From: a virus
Length of the DNA: 37,511 nucleotides
IMG/VR virus record: IMGVR_UViG_3300037882_000370
Span: 1-37,511 of that record
Strand: one strand, 5' to 3'
The notes under the pieces were generated by a model. It did no database searches. It was not told the DNA's origin and saw only the letters and a list, made by a program, of their open reading frames with translations. A program made the position numbers and the translations under genes. Shown here one piece after another: positions 2,498-33,154 of this stretch (the first letter of the stretch is position 1; each line of letters begins with the position of its first letter).

Positions 2498-2733
2498 CCT
2501 GGGTCCTTACCAGGCCACTTCTCGGGTTCTTCAAGTACCTCATGAGTCTTGGCGTCATGTAGAGCCATTTCCATGCACCGGATCAGGTCTGCCGGTGTTT
2601 CATCCTTGTCAACGATGAAATCAACAGGGTCCATCGTCATGGCCCAAGGGAGGCCATCGTCATCGTAGAAAACCTCATGGAGGCCGTAATACCCCTGTAG
2701 GCGCTTGACGATACGGTAGTTCCAATGGCTCAT
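2494..2733 (-). CDS. Hypothetical phage protein
   Basis: 79 residues beginning MSHWNYRIVKR, an opening I have seen in many small unassigned phage proteins, followed by a short beta-like stretch and an acidic helix (TPADLIRCMEMALHDAKT). No catalytic motif, signal or membrane segment. It overlaps the phosphoesterase stop and the DUF3310 start by four bases each (ATGA type), so it is translated as part of this operon. Confidence 0.7.
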   Translation of the reverse strand: MSHWNYRIVKRLQGYYGLHEVFYDDDGLPWAMTMDPVDFIVDKDETPADLIRCMEMALHDAKTHEVLEEPEKWPGKDPG

Positions 2734-4622
2734 ACCTCAATCACCTTCCCTCTGAAGACGACCAAACCCCGCTCCTCATCTAACACACGGACTAGCTCTA
2801 TGTCAACCAGGGTTGATTTATGGAAATGGGCAATGGCGAACCCAGACCGCCAATCCGTTATGGATGCTTCCGTGTAATTCTCAAACTGAGGCCCCTTGAC
2901 CGCCGCAAGACAACCAGAATCACACCCAAATAGAGTCCCAGTGTAATTGGTTATAGGGTACACTTTTTGAGAGTGTAGATGCCCGGTTATAATATTCCAC
3001 CCGGCTTTGATAACATTTGTGTAGGGGGCATGTTGCCCGCCCTTAAATCTATGTTTCACCACCGTATTGTTATTGATGTGAACCGCCCAAGCGTTTGTCC
3101 ACGCTCCGAAATGATCTTTTAAGCTGGTGCCTTCTACCTTCTCGTATTGGGGAGCATTAGTCGCTAAGAATGTCTCAAAGCGCGAATTACCAGTGAAATA
3201 ACAAGTCCCATGGTGGCGCACCATGAAATTCCCATGCGGCACCCTCAAACACCATACCTTCCCTTTATAGGAGCCATGCCGAAATCCCTTCTTTAAGACC
3301 ATGAGGCGGCTGGATTTAGTAAGAGATAGACGGTAGTGCCCCCTATTGTCTTGCGTTAGGAGTGCCCGCCACCCATGGCATACCGCGAGGGACTGAATGC
3401 TAGATAGAATCGGCTCTAAACCATACACGGTGCAATTGTCGGCCGTGTTCCAGTGGCCATTACCAGACACGATTGCGTCGAGTAGGATATTAAATTGGCG
3501 GGTCGAGATATCGTACACCCAGTACGGGAGCGCAGCCTTAGTGGTTAGATACTCACGGATGGCTCTAGACGAGTCTCTTGTGAGATAAAAATGATGCTCG
3601 TCAAGCGGCGGCTTAAGGAGTTTTCGGCCGCAGATATGCGTAATATCGCGCCGCCTTACAGACACGTTATAGCTTAGCCCGAGAGCGTCTAGAAGACGCC
3701 GGATTTCACGAATCCCTTCTGCCTTGCTTTGATGGAGAGTCACATTCTTCCCAGAAAAGCACCCATCAGTTACGAGCCACCCAATCAGACCCAACCAGTT
3801 GTCGCTAATGTCATAATCTGGCAGCCCCAGAGCCCCAGAAGAAGGGACCGAGAAACGTGACGGCAAACTATCAGCCGTAATGTATTCCTGAATATCATCC
3901 TTAGCCGTTCGCCAATTACGACGCCAAAGCAGGATTCGGTGGTTGGGGGTAACGGCGCACTTAAAGCGTAAGTCATCATGGAATAACAAATTACCGTCAT
4001 AGTCAAACTCGACTATCTCGTTAATTTTAGACCATACCGCCTTATCTCCGTCCATAGAAAGGATGAAATCATCAAGACTAAGATCGGATTTGCTCTTCCA
4101 TCCTTTCTTGGTAAGACATTGAGTATCAGGGCTTAGACAATCATGGTTGCCCAATGTCCATATTTTTTCTGCTTTCTTGCTTGTCTTTTCTATTTCACCT
4201 AGACGCTCTCGGACAGCGTCCAATTCCTCCCACACCTTGGGGCGCTGCTCAAAATTTATAGGTGTGTGTCTTGAAACGGTTGCCCCATCAAACATGTCGC
4301 CGTTGGCAACGACAAGTTTGGGTGTGAACTCCTTGATGATTTCAAGGAGGGCTTTATGGGCGGTGCTGGGTTCGCCGGGCCAAAAATGTGCGTCAGAAAA
4401 TATAATTACCCGGCCATCCGGGATATCAATTGTCTGAACCGCAGGATGATGAACGGATGCTTTACCAGGTGAGTCTAGGACAATGCCATTCCGTTTCTCA
4501 ATCGCTCTCCGGCGTTCCAGAACCTTCCGCTGATCTGTACCGATCCTCCGGGCTAACTCTGCCGCCCCCAGAAGCGGGAACAGCCTTATGAACTCGTCCT
4601 CGCTGATCTTCGCTTTGGCCAA
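2730..4622 (-). CDS. Calcineurin-like metallophosphoesterase interrupted by an intein
   Basis: 630-residue precursor. Residues 1-50 look like a helix-turn-helix (AAELARRIGTDQRKVLERR). The metallophosphoesterase motifs follow: SDAH (76-79), GDMFDG (108-113), GNHD (158-161) and GHLH (547-550). Residues 162-479 are an intein inserted directly after GNHD; splicing would leave a 312-residue enzyme. The family hydrolyses phosphomono- or diesters with two metal ions; the substrate here is unknown. TTG is chosen as start because AAGGAG sits 7 bases upstream. Its first 125 bases overlap the end of the upstream gene. Splicing must occur for activity, since the intein separates the metal ligands. Confidence 0.9.
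   Translation of the reverse strand: MAKAKISEDEFIRLFPLLGAAELARRIGTDQRKVLERRRAIEKRNGIVLDSPGKASVHHPAVQTIDIPDGRVIIFSDAHFWPGEPSTAHKALLEIIKEFTPKLVVANGDMFDGATVSRHTPINFEQRPKVWEELDAVRERLGEIEKTSKKAEKIWTLGNHDCLSPDTQCLTKKGWKSKSDLSLDDFILSMDGDKAVWSKINEIVEFDYDGNLLFHDDLRFKCAVTPNHRILLWRRNWRTAKDDIQEYITADSLPSRFSVPSSGALGLPDYDISDNWLGLIGWLVTDGCFSGKNVTLHQSKAEGIREIRRLLDALGLSYNVSVRRRDITHICGRKLLKPPLDEHHFYLTRDSSRAIREYLTTKAALPYWVYDISTRQFNILLDAIVSGNGHWNTADNCTVYGLEPILSSIQSLAVCHGWRALLTQDNRGHYRLSLTKSSRLMVLKKGFRHGSYKGKVWCLRVPHGNFMVRHHGTCYFTGNSRFETFLATNAPQYEKVEGTSLKDHFGAWTNAWAVHINNNTVVKHRFKGGQHAPYTNVIKAGWNIITGHLHSQKVYPITNYTGTLFGCDSGCLAAVKGPQFENYTEASITDWRSGFAIAHFHKSTLVDIELVRVLDEERGLVVFRGKVIEV
3186..4139 (-). mobile_element. 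Intein with degenerate LAGLIDADG endonuclease (phosphoesterase insertion)
   Basis: 318 residues, Cys162 to Asn479 of the precursor. Splicing blocks: Cys at the N-end (CLSPDTQCL), TPNH (225-228) as the TxxH block B, and VPHGNFMVRHHGTCYFTGN at the C-end, with Ser480 as the +1 nucleophile. The residue before the terminal Asn is Gly, not the usual His. The middle holds two LAGLIDADG-like helices: WLGLIGWLVTDG (Asp286 kept) and FNILLDAIVSGNGHW, where Asn388 replaces the usual acidic residue. The endonuclease may thus be weak or dead while the splicing domain remains intact. Confidence 0.88.
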
Positions 4623-23226: not shown

Positions 23227-25129
23227 TGTGACTCTTCAATTTGGAGATGGCTTCAGGGGACAGCCTGTGCATGTAGGCCGGATCACTCATGATCGCCTCA
23301 TGCGACTGCATGTGCATGAGGTGGTCCTGGTCAGGAAGAACAGGCGGCATCGGAACACCCGGCATAATTGCCATCATGTTCTCCTGCGCCGGATCATCCA
23401 CACGCATCGGCGGCTCGATCTTCGGCAGAACCTCGTCAATGTTCTGCGCCCCGATAGCCTCAAGATACCTACGAGAGGCGTTCCTGAGGTGCATGGGGCT
23501 CTGGAGGACAATCGGATTCTGGGCAAGGTGCTGCCACTCGGCTTCCGCCTGTGCCAGCTTCTCCCGCTTCGTAATGGCCTCAGGATCGGCAATGGGGATG
23601 ACCTGTAGGTCTTCCTCATAGTCCATCCGGGAGGCGCCCTCCCTCTGAAGCTGCCCATCCACGTCAAGGACGGTGAAATACTCGTGCGGGTCCATATACT
23701 TCCGGTTCAGCCGGAAGACCTTAGCTAACTCATTGGACCAGGAGTTGACGACGCGGCCAAAGAGGGACGAGTAGGAACCACCCGTCTGCTCCAGGAGAGC
23801 AAGGATGGTCGTAGGCTGCATCACCTTCTCGGTCTGCCCCGTCGCCGCGTCCGTCACGAATGACAGGCGGTCAGCACGAGCAAGGAGAAGCTGCATGATC
23901 TCAGGCAATACCGGAGAGGGTCCGGGGAACTTGAACTGGAACAGACCCTTGTTGATGTCTTCCATGGAGTTGGAGATTTTCTGGAACTTGCCCAGAGCCA
24001 TCTTCAACTCGCCACCCTTGATGTTCAGGGCGGAAGATACGAAGCCGGAGCTGTTCCCAGCATTTGCAAGAGTGCCTGCGTCCACAGTCTGGCGGGTCAG
24101 CTTGTTGATCGCGGTGTTGAGCTTGCCAATCAGGTGCCCATACCCAAGACCATAGAACCCGTCAGGATTCTTGAGGAACTGGTAGTGGGTGTAATACTCC
24201 ACCGGAGCCATATCGTCCGTGGGGAAGCCGGCCTCGTCCGTGTCCCACCGGATAGACAGTCTCAGGAGCTTACGGGATTCCGTGTCCACCGTCGCGATGT
24301 ACGGCTCTCCGATACCGTCTTGATCCAAGTCAATGACGGTGTGCTGCTCCAGAATCTTGCAATGCTTGCTTTTGCCAAACGGGGTGTCCTGGAGGCCCAT
24401 GGCCTTGTCGTGGGCCTGGTCCATCTCATTGGCTTGGACAAAGGATACCGGGACGGCGGGTTGAGTCAGATACCCCTTGGCCGCCAGAATCTTGGTTCTG
24501 TTCTCCGGCAGCCAGATAACCTCGGTCCTCCGGTCAATGTCTTCGAGGCTCCGAGGTCCCGTCCCATAAGGGATGATTAGGTCTACAGCACGGACATTCT
24601 TAACGACGTTCTTCTTCTTGACCGGATCGTAGTAGGTCTTGGTGAAGAAGGAGCCGTGTAAGGGGAGAGAGAGAAGTAAGGAATCCTTGTTTTCTACATA
24701 GTCCTTGTCCCGAGCCATCAACTGCCAAGACATATGCTTCTTGACCCGTTCCGCCCGTTCCTTCGAGGAAGGATCAGGGTTGCCTACAGGAACAGCCTGG
24801 ATGATGTTCCGCGAGGGGAACATCTGCTTATAGGCTCGGGAGTGGAACTGGTTACAGGCTTCCGCCAACTGCGGAATAGACTCGTTGGATGACCCATCCC
24901 ACGGGGGGTTTACAGGATCGTCCCTCTGGAAGTAGAGGTTGAGCCATTCCGTGTGCATCTTCATCCACTCGGAACGACTGTCTTCATCCTCCTGACAGGA
25001 GTCCAGAACGTCGTTGGCAATGCTAGAAGCCTCTCCCTCCGTAATGTAGGGGACAAGGTTGATTAGTTCTGGATGTTGATAAGCGTTCTGGTCGAGAAGT
25101 TGTTGTACGAGAGCCGGAATGTCAGCCAT
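22988..25129 (-). CDS. Portal protein
   Basis: 713 residues, the length of P22-like portals. N-terminal helical region (WMKMHTEWLNLYFQRDDPVN, PPWDGSSNESIPQLAEA), the clip/stem-type middle (GFYGLGYGHLIGKLNTAINK, LTRQTVDAG), and a long helical region rich in Gln and Met. The last 80 residues are low-complexity Gly/Pro/Met, overprinted by another gene. It forms the dodecameric DNA gate at the capsid vertex. Unusually, it is separated from the terminase by the sugar/methyl transfer cassette. Confidence 0.88.
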   Translation of the reverse strand: MADIPALVQQLLDQNAYQHPELINLVPYITEGEASSIANDVLDSCQEDEDSRSEWMKMHTEWLNLYFQRDDPVNPPWDGSSNESIPQLAEACNQFHSRAYKQMFPSRNIIQAVPVGNPDPSSKERAERVKKHMSWQLMARDKDYVENKDSLLLSLPLHGSFFTKTYYDPVKKKNVVKNVRAVDLIIPYGTGPRSLEDIDRRTEVIWLPENRTKILAAKGYLTQPAVPVSFVQANEMDQAHDKAMGLQDTPFGKSKHCKILEQHTVIDLDQDGIGEPYIATVDTESRKLLRLSIRWDTDEAGFPTDDMAPVEYYTHYQFLKNPDGFYGLGYGHLIGKLNTAINKLTRQTVDAGTLANAGNSSGFVSSALNIKGGELKMALGKFQKISNSMEDINKGLFQFKFPGPSPVLPEIMQLLLARADRLSFVTDAATGQTEKVMQPTTILALLEQTGGSYSSLFGRVVNSWSNELAKVFRLNRKYMDPHEYFTVLDVDGQLQREGASRMDYEEDLQVIPIADPEAITKREKLAQAEAEWQHLAQNPIVLQSPMHLRNASRRYLEAIGAQNIDEVLPKIEPPMRVDDPAQENMMAIMPGVPMPPVLPDQDHLMHMQSHEAIMSDPAYMHRLSPEAISKLKSHNETHLAFLYGMVGAVQPGVGGPVQGGPMGMGQEAGGPMALSGAPGAVPPGNGVAAGATMGPPEPSQGPTGSPSMGRGPT

Positions 25130-26498
25130 TAAATAGTTCTGTAAACTCTTTACGCTTCTTGTGTTTCACCCTGAACAGGTGGGGGATGAGTCCGTCACCC
25201 CTAACCTCGACATGAATGTCCTTGCCTAGCTTGATCAGCTTCTCGAAGTCCTGAGCCTGGGCCAGAAGCTCTAAGTCAGTCCAGAACTGCCGGCCCTCGC
25301 AGTCCACCATAATCGGGTCCTTCTTCTTGAGCCCGTGTGTTTCCTCCTTCGTAGGCTTCTCCTTGTAGGACGAGTCGAAGCCGATCAGGATGAACTTGCG
25401 GAACCCAATGGAGTGGAGAACGGACATACCTCGGGAGGCCGCTGTAGAGCCCCCGGAAATCATCATCGCGTCCCCAAGCTCCTTCTGGACCGCCTTGGCC
25501 TCCCCGGCACCCACGAAGGCGTGGTAGCCCCAAATCTGGGCCTTGGCCTCCACCAGCCTGTCCATCGTTACAGGATGGACCATGGAAGCCGTTATGTATC
25601 GGATGTCCTTGTGGGGTGTCTCGATAAAATCAAGAACGTGAGGCCGGGGGTCGAGCAAGAGACAGGCCCACGGGATGATTCCTTCCTTGATAAGCCAATC
25701 ATGTGAGGTTTTGACACAGAAGATGTAGTGCCCCTCTTTTCCCGCGATCTCCTTAACTTCCTCAAGAAAGTCCAGCCTCGATGGCCCGCCTGAAACGATG
25801 ACGGCCGTTGCGTCATGCGGCTCACATTCCTCCAGATATTTCTCAAAAAACTGGACGTTGTACTTTACATTGGCCTGGATGTTCTTCTCAGGCACGCAAT
25901 TGCGGGTCTGCACCTGAATCTTCATCTTACCAGGCCACGCCTGAGGCGGCTTCACAGCCATCCTGACTAGACCACCCTCCCTCACTGGATCGGTGGCCGG
26001 CATGATCAAGAACTCTTCCCCGTGGATGACCGTGTTGCACCCGTACAGCTTGGTGTCAACGCAGTTACCGCTCTCGTCCTTCTGATACCAGTCATCCAGG
26101 ACGACGGTCTTGCAATGCTTCAGAAGGTCATAGTCGCTCTTGATCGTCTCGACGGAATGGCCCCCATCGATGAACACGAAGGCATCATCGGGAATCTTGA
26201 CCTTGGGGAGAGTTTCCTTGCTGTTCCCCTCGTGTAGTTCGAAGCTGAAGCCATGGCCTTCCAAGGTCTTTACAACCTGCTCCATGGAAACGCGCTTCTT
26301 GGCGTTCAATTCCGCCGAGTCAATCTCCGGGGTCCCTGTCTCGAACAGGTCGAAGCCGATGTAATGGACATTCGGGTTATGCTTGAGTGCCGTCTGGCAC
26401 ATATCGAGGGCTCTTAGGCCGTTCCACGTCCCAACCTCGACAATCGTTGTCGGTTTGACGCTCTCAATCAGGGTATTAAGCTGGCTATACCGATTCAT
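25122..26498 (-). CDS. Methyltransferase-DUF115 (Maf/MptE-like) fusion protein
   Basis: 458 residues from ATG 26498, preceded by GAAGG; a TTG at 26504 is less likely. Residues 1-185 are a class I SAM methyltransferase: IVEVGTWNGLRALDM (motif I), HYIGFDLF, and FVFIDGGHSVETIKSDYDLL. Residues about 230-400 match DUF115 (6-hydroxymethylpterin pyrophosphokinase MptE-like and flagellin glycosyl Maf proteins): AVIVSGGPSRLDFL, CLLLDPRPHVLDF, STAASRGMSVLHSIGF and FILIGFDSSY. Likely acts on glycans or glycosylated proteins. Overlaps the portal start by eight bases. Confidence 0.8.
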   Translation of the reverse strand: MNRYSQLNTLIESVKPTTIVEVGTWNGLRALDMCQTALKHNPNVHYIGFDLFETGTPEIDSAELNAKKRVSMEQVVKTLEGHGFSFELHEGNSKETLPKVKIPDDAFVFIDGGHSVETIKSDYDLLKHCKTVVLDDWYQKDESGNCVDTKLYGCNTVIHGEEFLIMPATDPVREGGLVRMAVKPPQAWPGKMKIQVQTRNCVPEKNIQANVKYNVQFFEKYLEECEPHDATAVIVSGGPSRLDFLEEVKEIAGKEGHYIFCVKTSHDWLIKEGIIPWACLLLDPRPHVLDFIETPHKDIRYITASMVHPVTMDRLVEAKAQIWGYHAFVGAGEAKAVQKELGDAMMISGGSTAASRGMSVLHSIGFRKFILIGFDSSYKEKPTKEETHGLKKKDPIMVDCEGRQFWTDLELLAQAQDFEKLIKLGKDIHVEVRGDGLIPHLFRVKHKKRKEFTELFNG

Positions 26499-26913
26499 TA
26501 ACAACCTTCTTTACTATATCGCTTGAGTGAATGTCTTTGAGCTTATGGTCCCCCCACCCAAAAAGGACCTTCATCCCCAGTTCCTCGCAAACATTCATCT
26601 CCGGGGTGTTCAGGTGTGTGCGATCCCCCCCTTTGATGAACCAATCATCCTTCTGGGCGTATTCCTTGATCGTCTCCACTACAGTCCCATCGTCGTCCTT
26701 GGCCTTTACCACCACGTCCACATACTTGATGGCCTTCAAAATCTCCGCCCGGTGCTCCCAGGGCATGAGGAAGTAACCCTTCTTCCGAATCAGCCACTCA
26801 TCCGTGTTCAAGACGGCCCATACCTCCCCGTAGCCCTTGGCGGACTCGCGGAATAGAGACAGATGCCCAACGTGGAGAGGGTCGAAGCCACCGGAGATGA
26901 ATAGACGCCTCAC
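26485..26913 (-). CDS. Cytidylyltransferase-family nucleotidyltransferase
   Basis: 142 residues from GTG 26913, which overlaps the upstream stop as GTGA; a longer start at 26994 would overlap the previous gene by 85 bases and is rejected. FISGGFDPLHVGHLSLF carries the HxGH nucleotide-binding motif (14-17), and DIHSSDIVKK near the end matches the ISTS-type motif. Family members make CDP-glycerol or ADP-heptose-type activated sugars/alcohols. Its partners in the cassette suggest a sugar donor for the glycosyltransferases. Confidence 0.82.
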   Translation of the reverse strand: MRRLFISGGFDPLHVGHLSLFRESAKGYGEVWAVLNTDEWLIRKKGYFLMPWEHRAEILKAIKYVDVVVKAKDDDGTVVETIKEYAQKDDWFIKGGDRTHLNTPEMNVCEELGMKVLFGWGDHKLKDIHSSDIVKKVVNESV

Positions 26914-27614
26914 AGCGTCCCTCCATAGACCTCGGTCTTCTTCCTCGGGCCTTTCTGATGGGTCATGTAGTCTCCCAATATCGTCTCGGGCCAAACATCG
27001 GTTCCCGATATGTTCTCCGAGAGGTTAAAAAAATTTGAGCCCATGGAGGACCTGACCACGTCCCACACAAAGCTGTCATGCCACTCCCGGAGGGTGAAGA
27101 TTTCCCCTGACACATACGTTCTACGGAGTTCTTGAAGGAACCTTTCGGCCTCCGGGAGGTTGTAGCACATGAACCCGCACTCTGAATGGTGCCAGTCCTT
27201 GCGCCCCAAATAACTGGCGATCACCCTCTTAGGGCACGCCTCCGAATAGAAGATGCGGTCAACAGGTCTATAAGTCTCCACATCCGCATCAACCCAAATC
27301 CATTGATCACATTCCGGCCTTTCCTTGCTCGTCTGGGCAAAGACCTTGTGACAGAACTTCACCGCTTGATAACGGTAGTCCAACTTGCGGTCCCTGACCC
27401 CGTTGGCAACCGAGTCCCCGTCGTACTGTTCGAGGAACTCCATGTATTCCCCGTCCTTCCGCATATCGACCCACTGGTTCTTGTCATCCAGCGGATCACC
27501 ACGGTAGAACACCATAAGGGGGATGTTCCAATAGGTGTTGAAGGACTCGACGAAGCGCCGGCCGTATAGCTCGTACCCCTCCTTCGAGAAGGTCGTCAGG
27601 GCCACCCGCTTCAC
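26910..27614 (-). CDS. Putative glycosyltransferase (GT-A type, DxD)
   Basis: 234 residues from GTG 27614, which overlaps the small membrane-protein stop as GTGA; the longer ORF start is rejected. N-terminal strand KRVALTTFSKEGYELYG, then DQWIWVDADVETYRPVD with the metal-binding DAD (109-111), and HHSECGFMCYN later. The layout fits a nucleotide-sugar glycosyltransferase but the family is not clear. Follows the other GT gene and precedes the cytidylyltransferase. Confidence 0.65.
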   Translation of the reverse strand: MKRVALTTFSKEGYELYGRRFVESFNTYWNIPLMVFYRGDPLDDKNQWVDMRKDGEYMEFLEQYDGDSVANGVRDRKLDYRYQAVKFCHKVFAQTSKERPECDQWIWVDADVETYRPVDRIFYSEACPKRVIASYLGRKDWHHSECGFMCYNLPEAERFLQELRRTYVSGEIFTLREWHDSFVWDVVRSSMGSNFFNLSENISGTDVWPETILGDYMTHQKGPRKKTEVYGGTL

Positions 27615-27712
27615 AGCGTTACCGTGATGATTAGAGCCGTAATCCCCGCAGAGAAGCCGGCCCACAACAGGATCGGCAGCCAGTGGCTACCTGTCTGATG
27701 TTTTGCCGGCAT
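27611..27712 (-). CDS. 33-residue single-span membrane protein
   Basis: Reads MPAKHQTGSHW then a transmembrane helix (LPILLWAGFSAGITALIITV). A strong purine-rich site (GGAGGGGGAAAG) precedes ATG 27712. Overlaps the upstream glycosyltransferase by 26 bases and the downstream one by four (GTGA). Translation signals and hydrophobicity support it; its role, perhaps membrane anchoring of the cassette enzymes, is a guess. Confidence 0.55.
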   Translation of the reverse strand: MPAKHQTGSHWLPILLWAGFSAGITALIITVTL

Positions 27713-28418
27713 CTTTCCCCCTCCAATACTCCCTGTGCCACTCCTGAGCAAATTCCCCCATTTCATATCCAGGGAAATTGGGGACACCATTGGTAAAATG
27801 TAATGCCTTAGGCTTTGAGTGCCCCACCAGCCAGTTCCACGCCTCGGGCAGAGGACCAATCTGCTCGTTTTCCAGCCACGAGAACCCGTGGAGCCACGAG
27901 CCCGTCTGGCTGTTCACTACTTCCCTGGTCAATACCTGATTGGCCCCGTGGGAACAGTTCCACAGGATCAGGGAGGACCAATTTTTACGGGGGTAGGGCA
28001 TCTGCCACTGCCCATCCATCTTGTAGGAGATGGCGGGCGTGAAGCGGTGCTTGACAACCTGCACCGCGTACTTGTCGTCTTTTAGCGCGAGGAGTTCCGC
28101 GATGTCTTCCAGGACCAGGAAATCGCAGTCCATAAAGACTGCCCAACCTCGATAGCCACAAAGATAAGGAACGAGAAAACGACTGAACGAGAAATCAGTC
28201 GAGAACGGCTTGCCGTCAACCATGTCATATCTTTGATTCCCGTCTCTTCGTTCCGCTCGCCAGTAGTGGCCCTTGTCCCTTAGAATGTGAAGATCAAGGG
28301 GGTGGATCACATACGGAATGCTCGCCCTCTTGGAAATACTCTTTGTGCAAACGTCGTAGGCTTCTTTCTCTCGATGGTCAAAGCCAACATAAATTGGTAG
28401 CGGGCTATCTTCTGTCAT
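27687..28418 (-). CDS. Glycosyltransferase family 8-like protein
   Basis: 243 residues. YVGFDHREKEAYDVC at the N-terminus, FSFSRFLVPYLCGYRGWAVF then MDCDFLVLEDIAELL with the DxD (97-99), RKNWSSLILWNC, and PKALHFTNGVP near the end: the order of motifs in GT8-like retaining transferases (sugar nucleotide binding, acceptor loop, His). AGAGGACC precedes ATG. Would transfer a sugar to host or phage surface glycan. Confidence 0.78.
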   Translation of the reverse strand: MTEDSPLPIYVGFDHREKEAYDVCTKSISKRASIPYVIHPLDLHILRDKGHYWRAERRDGNQRYDMVDGKPFSTDFSFSRFLVPYLCGYRGWAVFMDCDFLVLEDIAELLALKDDKYAVQVVKHRFTPAISYKMDGQWQMPYPRKNWSSLILWNCSHGANQVLTREVVNSQTGSWLHGFSWLENEQIGPLPEAWNWLVGHSKPKALHFTNGVPNFPGYEMGEFAQEWHREYWRGKDAGKTSDR

Positions 28419-28424
28419 GGTCCT

Positions 28425-28925
28425 CTAGTCGTTTTTCATGACCTCGTAATCAATATGAGGCGGAGCAATCTCCTTGATCAGATGCTCCCACCAGATAAGA
28501 GGCCGGATTGTCAAATGGCAATTACGCCCGTCTGGTAGTGTTTTCTTGGCTGCCCTTGGGCAGACCGTGAAAAACACACACTTTTTGGCCTTGGAGAAAA
28601 TCTCCTCGATTACGCCCTTGAGTTCTTCCTCCGGGATGTGCTCAAGAACATCAACGCAGACTACCATATCGAACATGGAGTCCGGAACCTTGTCATATTC
28701 CGGGACAGCAGGGTCGTATTTCGTAACGTCTACGCCCCATTTCTCCGCGAGGTCCATATCCTTCCCATACTGAACGCCCTGACCGCACCCATAGTCCAGT
28801 AGGGTCTTGACGCCATGCCTCTTCACCATATCGTGGATGTAGTTGGCGAAGATAAGGGTTGTCAGGCCGCTGAAGGCACCCTTTAACATAAGCTCTCGAT
28901 ATTGGTCAGCTAAGTCGCGCTTCAC
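28425..28925 (-). CDS. Class I SAM-dependent methyltransferase
   Basis: 166 residues. LLDYGCGQG (42-50, motif I), KYDPAVP (post-I acidic) and FDMVVCVDVLEHIPEE (85-100) are clear for a small-molecule-type methyltransferase. GTG start, preceded by GGGAGG, overlaps a preceding 13-codon reading frame as GTGA. Substrate unknown; given neighbours, a sugar or lipid is likely. The 39-base gap upstream holds only that short frame. Confidence 0.82.
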   Translation of the reverse strand: MKRDLADQYRELMLKGAFSGLTTLIFANYIHDMVKRHGVKTLLDYGCGQGVQYGKDMDLAEKWGVDVTKYDPAVPEYDKVPDSMFDMVVCVDVLEHIPEEELKGVIEEIFSKAKKCVFFTVCPRAAKKTLPDGRNCHLTIRPLIWWEHLIKEIAPPHIDYEVMKND

Positions 28926-29752: not shown

Positions 29753-32077
29753 CTAAGTCGCATACGGATCGGCAATCTTGCCCCTTGCTTTATCAGCCTC
29801 GTCACCAACGGAAGCCCTATATCTATCTTCGGGAGTAGAAATATACGGCCTGGACCTACATGCGTACGCCACTTGATCGTAGCAATTATGGACGATGGCC
29901 CCACCCCCCACAATGAAGCAATGGATGTCAGGGACGTGGATGTTGTAGACGTTTTCTTTTCTTGAGGTCCGTGTAATACCCCGGATTCCTACGGCGGAAA
30001 GCGCGCTGCTCACAAGTGCCGGAGCATCTTTTGACAACTCTCCGTCTGGCGAGAAAAGACTTGCCACATTCCTGACAAACACATTCAAAACGCGGCCCAA
30101 GAGCGGCAATCTTTCTGAATTGCTGCCGGTGCCACTCTCGTCCTTGCTCTGACCTGTGCCACTCAGAGGCTTTAGGCCGCATTCTTGTTTCCATATGCCA
30201 TTTGGCGTAAGCAATGCGGTCCGGTTCTCTAGTGTGATTCCTGAGATGAACGGAGGCTGGAAGAAGCTCCAGGTTTTCGATTGCGTTGTTAGACTTGTCG
30301 CCATCCTTGTGATGGCAATGGAAACCCTCAGGGATTGGCCCGTTGTGGTGTTCCCATACGACTCGGTGCAATCTAACGCCTTTTCGCTGGTAGTATTCTC
30401 CGCACTTCCAGTAGGTCTTGCCGAGGAAGACTTGCCCCATGACGCCTCCTTAGGGTTGGCGCATAGGATATAGTCGTTATAAGCCAACTCGTCAATCCTT
30501 CGATACCTTAGGTCGGCGCACAATACCGGATGGCCGCCAGTCCCCTCGATGACTTGACCGTCCTCCAATTCCAGCCTGTAAATCTCCGCATTCTCCTGAG
30601 TCATGCCTAGATTGATATACGGCATAAACCCATGATGTGTAAGGATTTTCCCAGTTTTAGGCAATTTTGCAAGCTCTGTCTGGCCCTCTGGGGTATAGAC
30701 CTTCGTGGAGCCAATCAGACAATGGTCTTCTTGCTTGGTATCCGGCCCTTTTTCGTGGTCCACCTCGTCCAACACGAGGGGGGGGACGGTACGCCAGAAA
30801 TGGGTACAGTTCTCCGTGACGAACAACATGGGGTCATCCATGACCTGCCCGTCATCCATCACCCGTGGATTCCCCGCCAATCTAGCAAGGACCTCCATGT
30901 AGTTCCTTTTCCGGTCCTTCTCCGATCTCCTGAAGATCAATCTAGCGTCTTCCTGAGCCATCCATTCTACCACGGAAGGCCCTGATTTCATTGCCCAACA
31001 TTCGGAGTCCGCGATCCTATAGTCAATCGCGTCGTTCCTCATTTGTTCTCTGTCAATGATGCCACGAGCTACTTGTTGCGGGGCGAGCCTAAGCCCCTGG
31101 TTAGCACGCCCGTTCCACCCATACCATTCGTCGTACATGATAAGGGCTCCAGGGGGAAGCCACCTCTCAGGCCACAACTCCCGTCCTGCAAGAATCGCAC
31201 CTTCACTGACCGTAAACCATCCAATGGAGAAGGGACTGGCAGTACCCCAGTCCATGACCATGAACCGGGTCCAGTGTTTTGGAGGATCAAATCTACGCAA
31301 CTGGTGTCGGTCCCGAGAGAGAGTATGCAAGGCTTGACCGACGACGGCATCCCAGTCCCCATCTCTTAGGGCCTTTGCTAATTCCGGGGTTAGAGCCCCA
31401 AAGGACCCCGCATATCCTGTATCGAGGTATCTATTATCCGCCATCTTCGCGGGGATGAAGATGGAGAGCCACCCCTGGTCGTTCTTGTCCGAGGGGCTTT
31501 TCATCGTATCGTCGTAGAACAGGGTTTCCGGGGGAACCTGATCCAGGAATATCTGCTTCAAATAGGTGTGTGCAGGCCCACCAGGGTTGGTGGCCATCAC
31601 GAACCTTGGAAGAAGCTCCTTATCCCTGTCAGGAACCCAGGAACCTAAACGGTTTCTGGTTTTGAGGTATGAAATCTGGTATTCGGTGAAGCGGGCTGCT
31701 TCATCGATACCCACCCAGTGCATCTCAGCACCCAGATACCTGTGTACGTCGTCGTCCCGATCGCAATAGCAGAAGACGAGGGCGGAGCCGTTACTGAAGT
31801 CGAAGGTCTTGCGGGAGTGGTTATACGACCCAATCGGCCCGTCTGGAACCTCCGCCCGCATCTTCTTGATGTGGTTGTCTTCCAACTCGGGAAGAGTCTT
31901 GCGGAACAGGTACGCCTGACAACCAGGATTCTGCAAACAGAACATGATGGCATCCCAACGGATGCTCTGGGACTTTCCCCCACCCGCCGCCCCTCCGTAG
32001 AGGATTTGGCGTGCCTTGGTCTTGTGGAGGAGCTTCTGTCTAGCCTGAGGCTTATACGGTATCTCGAAATCAGCCAA
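29753..32077 (-). CDS. terL: Terminase large subunit with intein
   Basis: 774-residue precursor. ATPase: Walker A GGAAGGGKS (28-36), Walker B WVGIDEAA (Asp125-Glu126), MATNPGG (161-167). Nuclease: MDWG (Asp276), ADSE (Asp357), then EDH (450-452) and CYDQVAYACRSRP after the intein, which splits the third acidic cluster. Residues 453-731 are an intein; the spliced enzyme has 495 residues. TTG start with AGG upstream. It packages DNA into heads through the portal; splicing is required to join the nuclease site. Confidence 0.92.
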   Translation of the reverse strand: MADFEIPYKPQARQKLLHKTKARQILYGGAAGGGKSQSIRWDAIMFCLQNPGCQAYLFRKTLPELEDNHIKKMRAEVPDGPIGSYNHSRKTFDFSNGSALVFCYCDRDDDVHRYLGAEMHWVGIDEAARFTEYQISYLKTRNRLGSWVPDRDKELLPRFVMATNPGGPAHTYLKQIFLDQVPPETLFYDDTMKSPSDKNDQGWLSIFIPAKMADNRYLDTGYAGSFGALTPELAKALRDGDWDAVVGQALHTLSRDRHQLRRFDPPKHWTRFMVMDWGTASPFSIGWFTVSEGAILAGRELWPERWLPPGALIMYDEWYGWNGRANQGLRLAPQQVARGIIDREQMRNDAIDYRIADSECWAMKSGPSVVEWMAQEDARLIFRRSEKDRKRNYMEVLARLAGNPRVMDDGQVMDDPMLFVTENCTHFWRTVPPLVLDEVDHEKGPDTKQEDHCLIGSTKVYTPEGQTELAKLPKTGKILTHHGFMPYINLGMTQENAEIYRLELEDGQVIEGTGGHPVLCADLRYRRIDELAYNDYILCANPKEASWGKSSSARPTGSAENTTSEKALDCTESYGNTTTGQSLRVSIAITRMATSLTTQSKTWSFFQPPFISGITLENRTALLTPNGIWKQECGLKPLSGTGQSKDESGTGSNSERLPLLGRVLNVFVRNVASLFSPDGELSKDAPALVSSALSAVGIRGITRTSRKENVYNIHVPDIHCFIVGGGAIVHNCYDQVAYACRSRPYISTPEDRYRASVGDEADKARGKIADPYAT
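29928..30440 (-). CDS. HNH endonuclease nested in the terminase intein, different frame
   Basis: 170 residues. VRLHRVVWEHHNGPIPEGFH then HHKDGDKSNNAIENLELLP form an HNH core (His43/His44, Asn56), and CVCQECGKSF with C139/C143 form a zinc ribbon. ATG 30440 is preceded by AAGGAGG at four bases, a near-perfect ribosome binding site inside the intein. The reading frame is shifted by one base from terminase. It ends inside the C-terminal splicing block. Likely a separately made homing enzyme for the intein. Confidence 0.87.
   Translation of the reverse strand: MGQVFLGKTYWKCGEYYQRKGVRLHRVVWEHHNGPIPEGFHCHHKDGDKSNNAIENLELLPASVHLRNHTREPDRIAYAKWHMETRMRPKASEWHRSEQGREWHRQQFRKIAALGPRFECVCQECGKSFLARRRVVKRCSGTCEQRAFRRRNPGYYTDLKKRKRLQHPRP
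30445..30451 (-). promoter_or_regulatory. Internal ribosome binding site for the nested HNH gene
   Basis: AAGGAGG on the minus strand, four bases before ATG 30440, lying within intein codons for NPKEAS of the terminase frame. It decides that the nested frame is translated independently. Confidence 0.75.
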
Positions 32078-32246
32078 GATCGAAGCCTAGCTTTGCCTTT
32101 TGCCGGATCAGAGGATTCCCTTGAGCGTCTAGAAGCCCGGTCTTTTCAGGCTCAATAGCCTCATAGACCGTCACCTTGTTGAACTCCAACTCACGATCCC
32201 ACGACTCGTCCGTATTGGTCGTCGAGACGTACAATATCTTCCTCAT
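32070..32246 (-). CDS. Hypothetical protein upstream of terminase
   Basis: 58 residues from ATG 32246, preceded by GGAG at six bases; the in-frame ATG at 32258 lies in that site and is rejected. MRKILYVSTTNTDESWDREL then a beta/helical end. No family. Overlaps the cupin gene by 56 bases and the terminase TTG by eight. Not obviously a small terminase, which is otherwise unassigned here. Confidence 0.55.
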   Translation of the reverse strand: MRKILYVSTTNTDESWDRELEFNKVTVYEAIEPEKTGLLDAQGNPLIRQKAKLGFDLG

Positions 32247-32568
32247 CACACTCTCCAATGGCCACCTCGATCACCTCAAGGACCTCATCCCCAAGGTTGA
32301 TCAGGCGGTGGTCCGTGTTCTTGGGGATGTAGATGGAATCCCCTACATCCAGGACACGGTTCTTATTGTCGAGGGAGACAAAGGCGGTACCCTTAACCAC
32401 CACCCACTGTTCGGTCCTCCCCCTGTGCCTCTGCAAGCTAAGGGCTTGTTTTGGCTCTACAACAAGGGTCTTCACCCAGTAACTAGGTGCTACCCTCATT
32501 AACTGAAAGCTCCCCCACGGTCTCGTCTGCCACGAACTCACGAGGTTTTCCAACGATTGTTCCATCAT
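32191..32568 (-). CDS. Mannose-6-phosphate isomerase-type cupin
   Basis: 125 residues. RPWGSFQLMRV, LSLQRHRGRTEQWVVVKGTA, LDVGDSIYIPKNTDHRLIN match the C-terminal type II phosphomannose isomerase cupin of ManC/AlgA, with the metal His pair (QRHRGRTEQW). The enzyme interconverts fructose-6-P and mannose-6-P. Only the cupin is present, without the GDP-mannose pyrophosphorylase half. It could feed the sugar cassette 2.5 kb downstream. Start uncertain (ATG 32568 versus internal codons). Confidence 0.8.
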   Translation of the reverse strand: MMEQSLENLVSSWQTRPWGSFQLMRVAPSYWVKTLVVEPKQALSLQRHRGRTEQWVVVKGTAFVSLDNKNRVLDVGDSIYIPKNTDHRLINLGDEVLEVIEVAIGECDEEDIVRLDDQYGRVVGS

Positions 32569-32764
32569 CCAATTTCACCATGCATCCAAGGAAGTCAACG
32601 GTGTCCACGAACAACTGTACGTTGTCCACAAGGTCCTTCCGGGTCTTTTGGTCGAACTTGAAGTTGCCGCCACGAATCCTGTGCCGTACATCATCAAGCT
32701 CATTCACCACTTGCTCGGGGGTCATCGCCGTCGTGTAGACGACCTCCACGATGATGCTTGGCAT
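32483..32764 (-). CDS. Hypothetical protein
   Basis: 93 residues: IIVEVVYTTAMTPEQVVNEL at the start, helical middle (RKDLVDNVQLFVDTVDF), beta end (CMVKLDDGTIVGKPREFV). No known family. Overlaps both neighbours (65 bases with the DnaA-like gene, 86 with the cupin), as in much of this early region. Could be the small terminase by position, but shows no HTH. Confidence 0.55.
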   Translation of the reverse strand: MPSIIVEVVYTTAMTPEQVVNELDDVRHRIRGGNFKFDQKTRKDLVDNVQLFVDTVDFLGCMVKLDDGTIVGKPREFVADETVGELSVNEGST

Positions 32765-33041
32765 CTAACCGTCTCCTCAGTTCTTGAATCGCCGCGTATG
32801 TCCTCGGCTCGCTCTGCCGCCTCCTGTCAACCTGCCTTACCCCGTATAGAACCGTGGTATGATCCCGGCAAAATATCCGGCCTAACGCCGGATAGCTCAG
32901 TTTCGTATACTCCCTGGCCAGCCAGTAGGCTATTTGCCTCGCCTCGCGAAGAGCCCCGGCCCGCCGCTCGGTATAAAAGTCAACCTCGTCCACTCCATAG
33001 AACTCAACAACAGCCGCCCTGATGTCGTTTACACTAACCAT
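32700..33041 (-). CDS. DnaA domain IV-like DNA-binding protein
   Basis: 113 residues from ATG 33041 (the longer frame start at 33143 is rejected). VVEFYGVDEVDFYTERR, AREARQ-type REARQIAYWLAREYT, PALGRIFCRDHTTVLYG (DHTTVLYG at 60-67) match DnaA domain IV including the DnaA signature. The ATPase domain is missing. It could bind DnaA boxes, recruit or block host DnaA, or regulate early genes; lying upstream of terminase, a role in packaging-site recognition is another possibility. Confidence 0.82.
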   Translation of the reverse strand: MVSVNDIRAAVVEFYGVDEVDFYTERRAGALREARQIAYWLAREYTKLSYPALGRIFCRDHTTVLYGVRQVDRRRQSEPRTYAAIQELRRRLDAKHHRGGRLHDGDDPRASGE

Positions 33042-33154
33042 ACAACCCCCAGGATTAGCCCAAGACCCAGAAGGATGGATAATACCATAAACGCCGCGCG
33101 GGGCAACCTCTTGCCCCTCGCTAGATGCTCCAGATAGTCCCAATCAGGAAGCAT
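33029..33154 (-). CDS. 41-residue single-span membrane protein
   Basis: MLPDWDYLEHLARGKRLPRA then a transmembrane helix of about 20 residues (MVLSILLGLGLILGVVW). Basic residues before the helix predict an inside N-terminus. Overlaps the DnaA-like ATG by 13 bases. No strong ribosome binding site upstream, hence moderate confidence. Function unknown. Confidence 0.45.
   Translation of the reverse strand: MLPDWDYLEHLARGKRLPRAAFMVLSILLGLGLILGVVWLV

Follow-up and report, generated by a model that had tools for sequence, protein, structure and literature searches.

Inteins are defined as single reading frames that carry splicing domains and, optionally, an endonuclease domain. In fractured genes, reportedly described by Dassa et al. 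in 2009, the two halves of a natural split intein flank a free-standing gene for a homing endonuclease. Homing HNH genes of the collaborative or intronless kind adjoin their target, as the free-standing psbA endonuclease does.

A split intein with a nuclease gene between its halves is exemplified by AceL NrdHF (PMC7891396), and the dCTP deaminase of cyanophage CL131 contains a bifunctional intein with an in-frame HNH domain (PMC6293099). The nearest published case that we found is the ShiLan-domain insertion in a mycobacteriophage DNA methylase, where an out-of-frame HNH gene lies within an open host frame that has no self-splicing domain (Arsenault, Gosselin, Gogarten 2025, PMC11855218). This insertion has a disjunct distribution, its independent translation has been proposed, it has no detectable ribosome binding site, and the insert is presumably tolerated by the host protein (PMC11855218). 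There is no intein at that locus.

We analysed a window of 37,511 nucleotides, the whole of the IMG/VR virus record IMGVR_UViG_3300037882_000370, in which the gene for the terminase large subunit (TerL) contains an intein and the DNA for the middle of this intein also encodes an HNH protein in a different frame. The features are listed here, with a slash marking splice junctions.

29753 to 32077, minus strand: TerL gene with in-frame intein, 774 aa (PHROG terminase large subunit, 3e-33; intein-less homologue, L014).
29885 to 30721, minus strand: intein, 279 aa, from C1 to VHN/C (Pfam Intein_splicing E=4e-9; block A/B residues, TxxH in block B, block F, GGAIVHN/C).
30441 to 30721, minus strand: N-terminal splicing half of the intein, blocks A and B (AlphaFold2 pLDDT 94–98; host-frame omega in relatives 0.41).
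29957 to 30439, minus strand: intein-frame filler across the HNH gene (predicted disordered, pLDDT about 45; host-frame omega in relatives 1.59).
29885 to 29956, minus strand: C-terminal splicing block of the intein, ENVYNIHV..GGGAIVHN (its start overlapped by the last HNH codons; omega in relatives 0.38).
29928 to 30440, minus strand: nested HNH_3 endonuclease open reading frame, 170 aa, in the -1 frame relative to TerL (Pfam HNH_3 E=1.3e-18; AlphaFold2 pLDDT 93.8).
30445 to 30451, minus strand: Shine–Dalgarno sequence AAGGAGG, 4 bases before the HNH ATG and overlapping the HNH-frame stop TAA at 30450–30452.
30234 to 30314, minus strand: HNH motif of the nested gene (H43, H44, D46, N52, N56 and H65 invariant in 60 relatives, H69 nearly invariant).
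30012 to 30077, minus strand: CxxC...CxxxC zinc-finger-like motif of the nested HNH protein (C122, C125, C139, C143).

Like ShiLan, the TerL element in the window has an out-of-frame HNH gene inside a phage gene whose frame stays open. Unlike ShiLan, the host frame in the window encodes a complete Hint intein, a self-splicing domain, and the filler is therefore expected to be spliced away. The element shares with fractured genes a free-standing endonuclease gene at the usual endonuclease position of an intein, an arrangement also found in 14 TerL relatives, but in the window, as in the 154 nested loci, the intein is not split: it is continuous, and the endonuclease gene overlaps it. As in the CL131 intein, an HNH_3 domain occupies the endonuclease position; it is in frame in CL131 and out of frame in TerL. 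Free relatives of the HNH adjoin intein-less TerL genes in the manner of psbA-type homing genes, which differ in having no overlap with a splicing element. In the literature that we searched, we found no continuous intein with a nuclease gene in another frame; a preprint by Gosselin, Arsenault and Gogarten ('Actinobacteriophage Inteins: ... Non-Canonical Architecture', bioRxiv 2025.01.02.630785, cited in PMC11855218) lies outside that search. There is a real chance that part of the layout has already been described.

The TerL frame runs without stops through 774 codons, from 32077 to 29753 on the minus strand, in the list of open reading frames of the 37.5-kb IMG/VR record. The intein takes up TerL residues 453–731 and is inserted at EDH/CYDQ, in the C-terminal DH-xDAxRY motif of the TerL nuclease. 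The first-pass annotation, which was made from the sequence alone, had called for a comparison with intein-less alleles. One such allele was found in L014, whose TerL is 61% identical to that of the window; it reads EDHSYD where the window reads EDH/intein/CYD, and the element is precisely absent. The insertion is in frame, at a conserved host site and with a known empty allele (EDH-SYD in L014), as expected of an intein.

Residues C1, T61, H64 and N279 are invariant across 38 inteins, and the element has the residues of a class 1 intein (Cys1, TxxH, and a C-terminal HN followed by C, S or T). AlphaFold2 models were built on alignments of relatives with the deposited phage rows left out. In the intein frame, residues 1–90 and 240–279 were modelled with a pLDDT of 94–98, and the residues between them had a pLDDT of about 45 and no secondary structure. 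The folded part matches the mini-inteins Ssp DnaB, Mxe GyrA and Mtu RecA (Foldseek, E down to 2e-6) and has the Hint fold. Together, the sequence motifs and the models strongly predict that the TerL insert is a complete cis-splicing intein. The first-pass annotation had described a TerL frame open through complete splicing blocks at 29885–30721 and a centre without an endonuclease in that frame; its coordinates proved exact (Intein_splicing E=4e-9), and the middle is indeed predicted to be disordered.

It had also described a whole HNH protein one base off the TerL frame, and this holds for the 170 residues encoded from 30440 to 29928 (HNH_3 E=1.3e-18). The HNH_3 domain and the conserved catalytic residues, seen with Pfam and in an alignment of 60 relatives, place the protein in a homing-endonuclease family. 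Its AlphaFold2 model has a mean pLDDT of 93.8. The best PDB match of this model is the HNH homing endonuclease I-HmuI, with a probability of 0.97 but a weak E of 0.014 and a low TM-score. Judged from the models, DNA that is read in one frame as a well-folded enzyme appears to be read in the other as a floppy linker.

The sequence before the HNH start reads ..CCTAAGGAGGCGTC-ATG, and the Shine–Dalgarno sequence ends 4 bases short of the ATG. The upstream context TAAGGAGGCGTC-ATG consists of an in-frame stop, a Shine–Dalgarno sequence and a 4-base spacer; the in-frame TAA (30452–30450) shuts the HNH frame just upstream of its ATG. Thus the near-perfect ribosome binding site noted earlier, 4 bases before the ATG, is present in the window (AAGGAGG), but it does not extend to the relatives as a general trait, as only about 25% of their starts have a 5–6-base match. 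This proportion compares with 6% of background, and a 6-base Shine–Dalgarno match occurs at 13.7% of HNH starts compared with 1.4% of background. The start codon is ATG at 123 of 139 HNH starts among relatives. A strong ribosome binding site is not supported as a general feature of nested HNHs; because most relatives have no strong Shine–Dalgarno sequence, initiation is not accounted for in all of them.

At least 100 distinct phages and prophages share the two-frame layout. The same HNH family was found at 182 loci, and in 154 of these it is nested, with the host frame at +1 relative to the HNH in 136 and at +2 in 18. The nested HNHs form 110 clusters at 90% identity and 84 at 70% HNH identity; these cluster counts are safer than locus counts because a few contigs were fetched by both scans (e.g. 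L063/L096). Scanning IMG/VR with the HNH family, together with deposited phages, gave 67 nested loci including the window, all at intein-like junctions of a TerL-like host frame. A second, independent viral scan used as its query a 46-residue block of C-intein and extein that contains none of the HNH. Here the HNH was out of frame in 80 of 80 loci and in frame in none, and the host frame was open in 79; 72 of these loci were TerL by a profile test, and the remainder includes truncated contigs. In canonical bifunctional inteins the endonuclease is in frame with the splicing domain, whereas it is in the -1 frame in the window and in frame in 0 of the 80 intein-seeded relatives.

The same kind of query against 84,980 bacterial and archaeal genomes returned 12 loci: 10 nested, 1 truncated, and 1 HEG-less mini-intein at the same TerL site (L184). 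The 10 nested loci include the isolates Bacteroides mediterraneensis and Beijerinckia mobilis. Named hosts in the genome records are Bacteroides, Parabacteroides, Flavobacteriaceae, Hymenobacter, Nitrospiraceae, Acidobacteria, Gemmatimonadales and Beijerinckia, and the loci lie mostly in presumed prophages or MAG contigs. Three deposited phages also carry the layout (Rhodobacteraceae phage LS06-2018-MD07, Tetrasphaera phage TJE1 and Acinetobacter phage Highwayman), and in all three the nested region is annotated as plain terminase. The layout is thus present in unrelated metagenomes, cultured isolates and deposited phages, and the nested two-frame observation is confirmed.

Most nested insertions lie close to the C-terminal DH-xDAxRY motif of the TerL nuclease, no more than a few residues away. 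Other sites are also used: a Bacteroidales locus (L186) has a nested element at GIDFGYE/CDPTA, which is motif I of the TerL nuclease (RNase H motif I), and the Beijerinckia mobilis locus (L187) has one at HDAAW/CDELAAW, which is Walker B. The terL of L109 contains two inteins. The one in its P-loop (GGSR/../SGKT; first 1300 bases, plus strand) nests a different enzyme, NUMOD4 plus HNH_3, and this NUMOD4-HNH_3 frame sits in the other alternative frame. As L109 has a different HNH subtype in the other frame, nesting seems to have arisen more than once. The use of several TerL sites and of a second HNH subtype therefore suggests that the out-of-frame layout is not a quirk of one lineage.

Conventional inteins occur alongside nested ones. 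In L043 a P-loop intein with a conventional long in-frame insertion is paired with a nested-HNH intein. The terL frames of L043/L044, L064 and L075 are 1142–1407 codons long and have further inteins at the P-loop and NPSGPGH sites beside the nested-HNH intein; the long in-frame insertions of these further inteins resemble conventional in-frame endonuclease domains. The window itself has a second intein, at 2730–4622 on the minus strand, in a metallophosphoesterase (Pfam Metallophos), with an in-frame LAGLIDADG_3 domain and the C-terminal junction FTGN/S. This intein is ordinary, with its endonuclease in frame, whereas the endonuclease of the TerL intein is out of frame.

The same HNH family is also found in two other settings. 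At 14 loci, including Vibrio phage 1.238.A, it lies between the halves of natural split TerL inteins, and in several of these the C half begins with a Met of its own immediately behind the HNH stop. Eleven loci with an HNH frame between the halves are candidate new split inteins (L006, L017, L029, L030, L032, L036, L048, L054, L062, L066 and L090). Free-standing relatives of the HNH also occur, several directly downstream of an intein-less TerL (Sphaerotilus SN1, Pseudomonas FBPa53, Brevundimonas Poludnitsa). Nested, split and free states interleave in the HNH tree, with at least 13 changes on the best topology, of which well-supported branches force 1. A single origin or a fixed direction, from nested to split or the reverse, was not retained, as support in the HNH tree is too low to fix the number or direction of changes. 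HNHs that are about 50% identical occur in TerLs that are 12–15% identical. HNH and TerL identities are correlated (r 0.80 overall, 0.41 below 60% TerL identity), and because of this overall correlation much of the inheritance may be vertical.

The frame that is under selection changes along the gene: within the overlap purifying selection acts on the HNH frame and not on the intein frame, and constraint returns to the intein frame on either side of the overlap. Omega was estimated by simple counting on related pairs. Pooled over 15 close pairs of relatives, the host-frame values were 0.22 for the N-extein, 0.41 for the N-intein, 1.59 for the overlap and 0.38 for the C-intein. HNH-frame omega in the overlap was mostly 0.1–0.5 by this counting method, on pairs that are not independent. 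Across 110 representative nested HNHs, we observed 0 stops in the intein frame compared with about 329 expected from synonymous shuffling of the HNH, a count that is partly circular, since an open host frame was part of the definition of a nested locus, although the two locus scans avoid this circularity. In the third frame of the same representatives, stops were as frequent as expected (1821 observed, 1775 expected). Within the overlap, the intein frame shows no visible constraint beyond staying open.

These results bear on the central claim of the first-pass annotation, that one stretch of DNA serves as intein filler in one frame and encodes a homing enzyme in the other, with the endonuclease freed from splicing. 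The claim is supported by the omega values and by the scan in which 80 of 80 loci were out of frame. A comparison of dN/dS in both frames had been suggested, and the two frames differed in the overlap (1.59 in the host frame, mostly 0.1–0.5 in the HNH frame). Relatives with a broken nested frame had been named as evidence against the arrangement; the result went the other way, with both frames kept open in 79 of 80 relatives fetched by the intein.

We propose that the locus is very probably a cis-splicing mini-intein in TerL combined with an independently translated, overlapping free homing endonuclease that homes into intein-less terL. The TerL precursor would be translated through the open frame, and the Hint halves, as strongly predicted from motifs and models, would fold around the disordered linker and splice to give intact TerL. 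A second ribosome on the same mRNA may initiate at the internal ATG, whose frame is shifted by one base, and produce a free HNH_3/zinc-finger nuclease; the start codon, the ribosome binding site, the conservation of the reading frame and omega suggest such internal translation. The free nuclease would then cut the intein-less terL of a relative, either a co-infecting phage or a prophage, at the insertion site or close to it; repair would copy the intein and its nested gene into the cut terL. Cleavage and homing are suggested by the enzyme family, the mobility pattern and the intein-less alleles. The out-of-frame position would give the nuclease its own start, stop and expression level, with the splicing fold neither tethered nor burdened, and the intein frame would need only to remain stop-free.

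We considered four other explanations. It is very unlikely that the HNH is a packaging-accessory protein, as proposed for terminase-adjacent HNH proteins, that sits inside the intein by happenstance. HNH genes are common beside terminases, and the free relatives described above lie just downstream of TerL. However, the family is HNH_3 with a zinc finger and its best PDB match, though weak (E 0.014), is I-HmuI. The HNH also sits in a splicing element that is absent from related TerLs, it is missing from one mini-intein (L184), and nesting recurs at four positions in TerL and involves a second HNH subtype.

We think it very unlikely that programmed ribosomal frameshifting fuses the HNH to the N-intein, in which case the nuclease would not be free. 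In the window the HNH-frame TAA stands 3 codons before the ATG, leaving a 9-base gap with no obvious slippery site. The two frames do overlap on one mRNA, and a Shine–Dalgarno sequence inside a gene can stimulate frameshifting; against this, Shine–Dalgarno matches are enriched at HNH starts that are ATG in 123 of 139 cases, and the split-intein and free relatives use their own start. Moreover, both alternative frames are used (136 at +1, 18 at +2), so different shift directions would be needed.

Single-base errors are the usual source of frame puzzles, but a sequencing or assembly frameshift hiding an ordinary intein with an in-frame HNH domain has a negligible probability and is ruled out by the relatives: the 154 loci, which come from independent metagenomes as well as from deposited phages and isolate genomes, would each have to contain two compensating errors, the HNH frame is bounded by its own start and stop with a further in-frame stop upstream, and no in-frame relatives were found. 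HNH_3 genes are typical of phage group I introns, but an RNA-spliced group I intron that contains the HNH gene is equally far-fetched and is ruled out by the host frame that is open throughout, the confident Hint fold of the ends and the absence of any Rfam match to a group I ribozyme core in the window.

Returning to the mini-intein with its overlapping nuclease gene, a plausible path is that a free HNH that cut terL entered a mini-intein at that site and, having entered out of frame, gained a start and a stop codon for itself. On this path little would be demanded of the host frame, which need only stay open. Once the intein frame was no longer open, the result would be a split intein whose halves flank the nuclease gene, a state that is seen in the relatives. 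We give an even chance to the broader view that phage TerL inteins include a large and so far unrecognised class, inserted at several sites and combined with two or more HNH subtypes, in which the endonuclease has moved out of the splicing frame, and that this overprinted arrangement serves as a gateway that links natural split inteins with free-standing homing genes.

If this is true, two functions evolve in different frames of one DNA stretch. A common class here breaks the one-frame rule for inteins, its nuclease being a hidden overlapping gene that annotators usually miss. We predict that many mini-inteins that look HEG-less actually have a HEG in another frame. The locus shows a long overprinted gene pair in which selection can be measured frame by frame, and it offers a possible route to split inteins with a central nuclease gene, both states being present within a single HNH family. 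For protein engineering, it offers compact new splicing domains whose linkers are tolerant and about 150 residues long.

Some other genes in the window are also worth recording. A small open reading frame just upstream of terL (32700–33143, minus strand) encodes a Bac_DnaA_C DNA-binding domain (5e-19) without the DnaA ATPase. Genes at 25122–28925 and 32191–32568 (minus strand) encode MptE-like plus Methyltransf_24, GT8-like, methyltransferase and mannose-6-phosphate isomerase cupin proteins; this sugar and methyl transfer cluster is interleaved with the terL and portal genes, which is unusual for a packaging module. Last, a papain-family cysteine protease (Peptidase_C1, 1e-10) is encoded at 528–1295 on the plus strand, the sole long plus-strand gene at that end.
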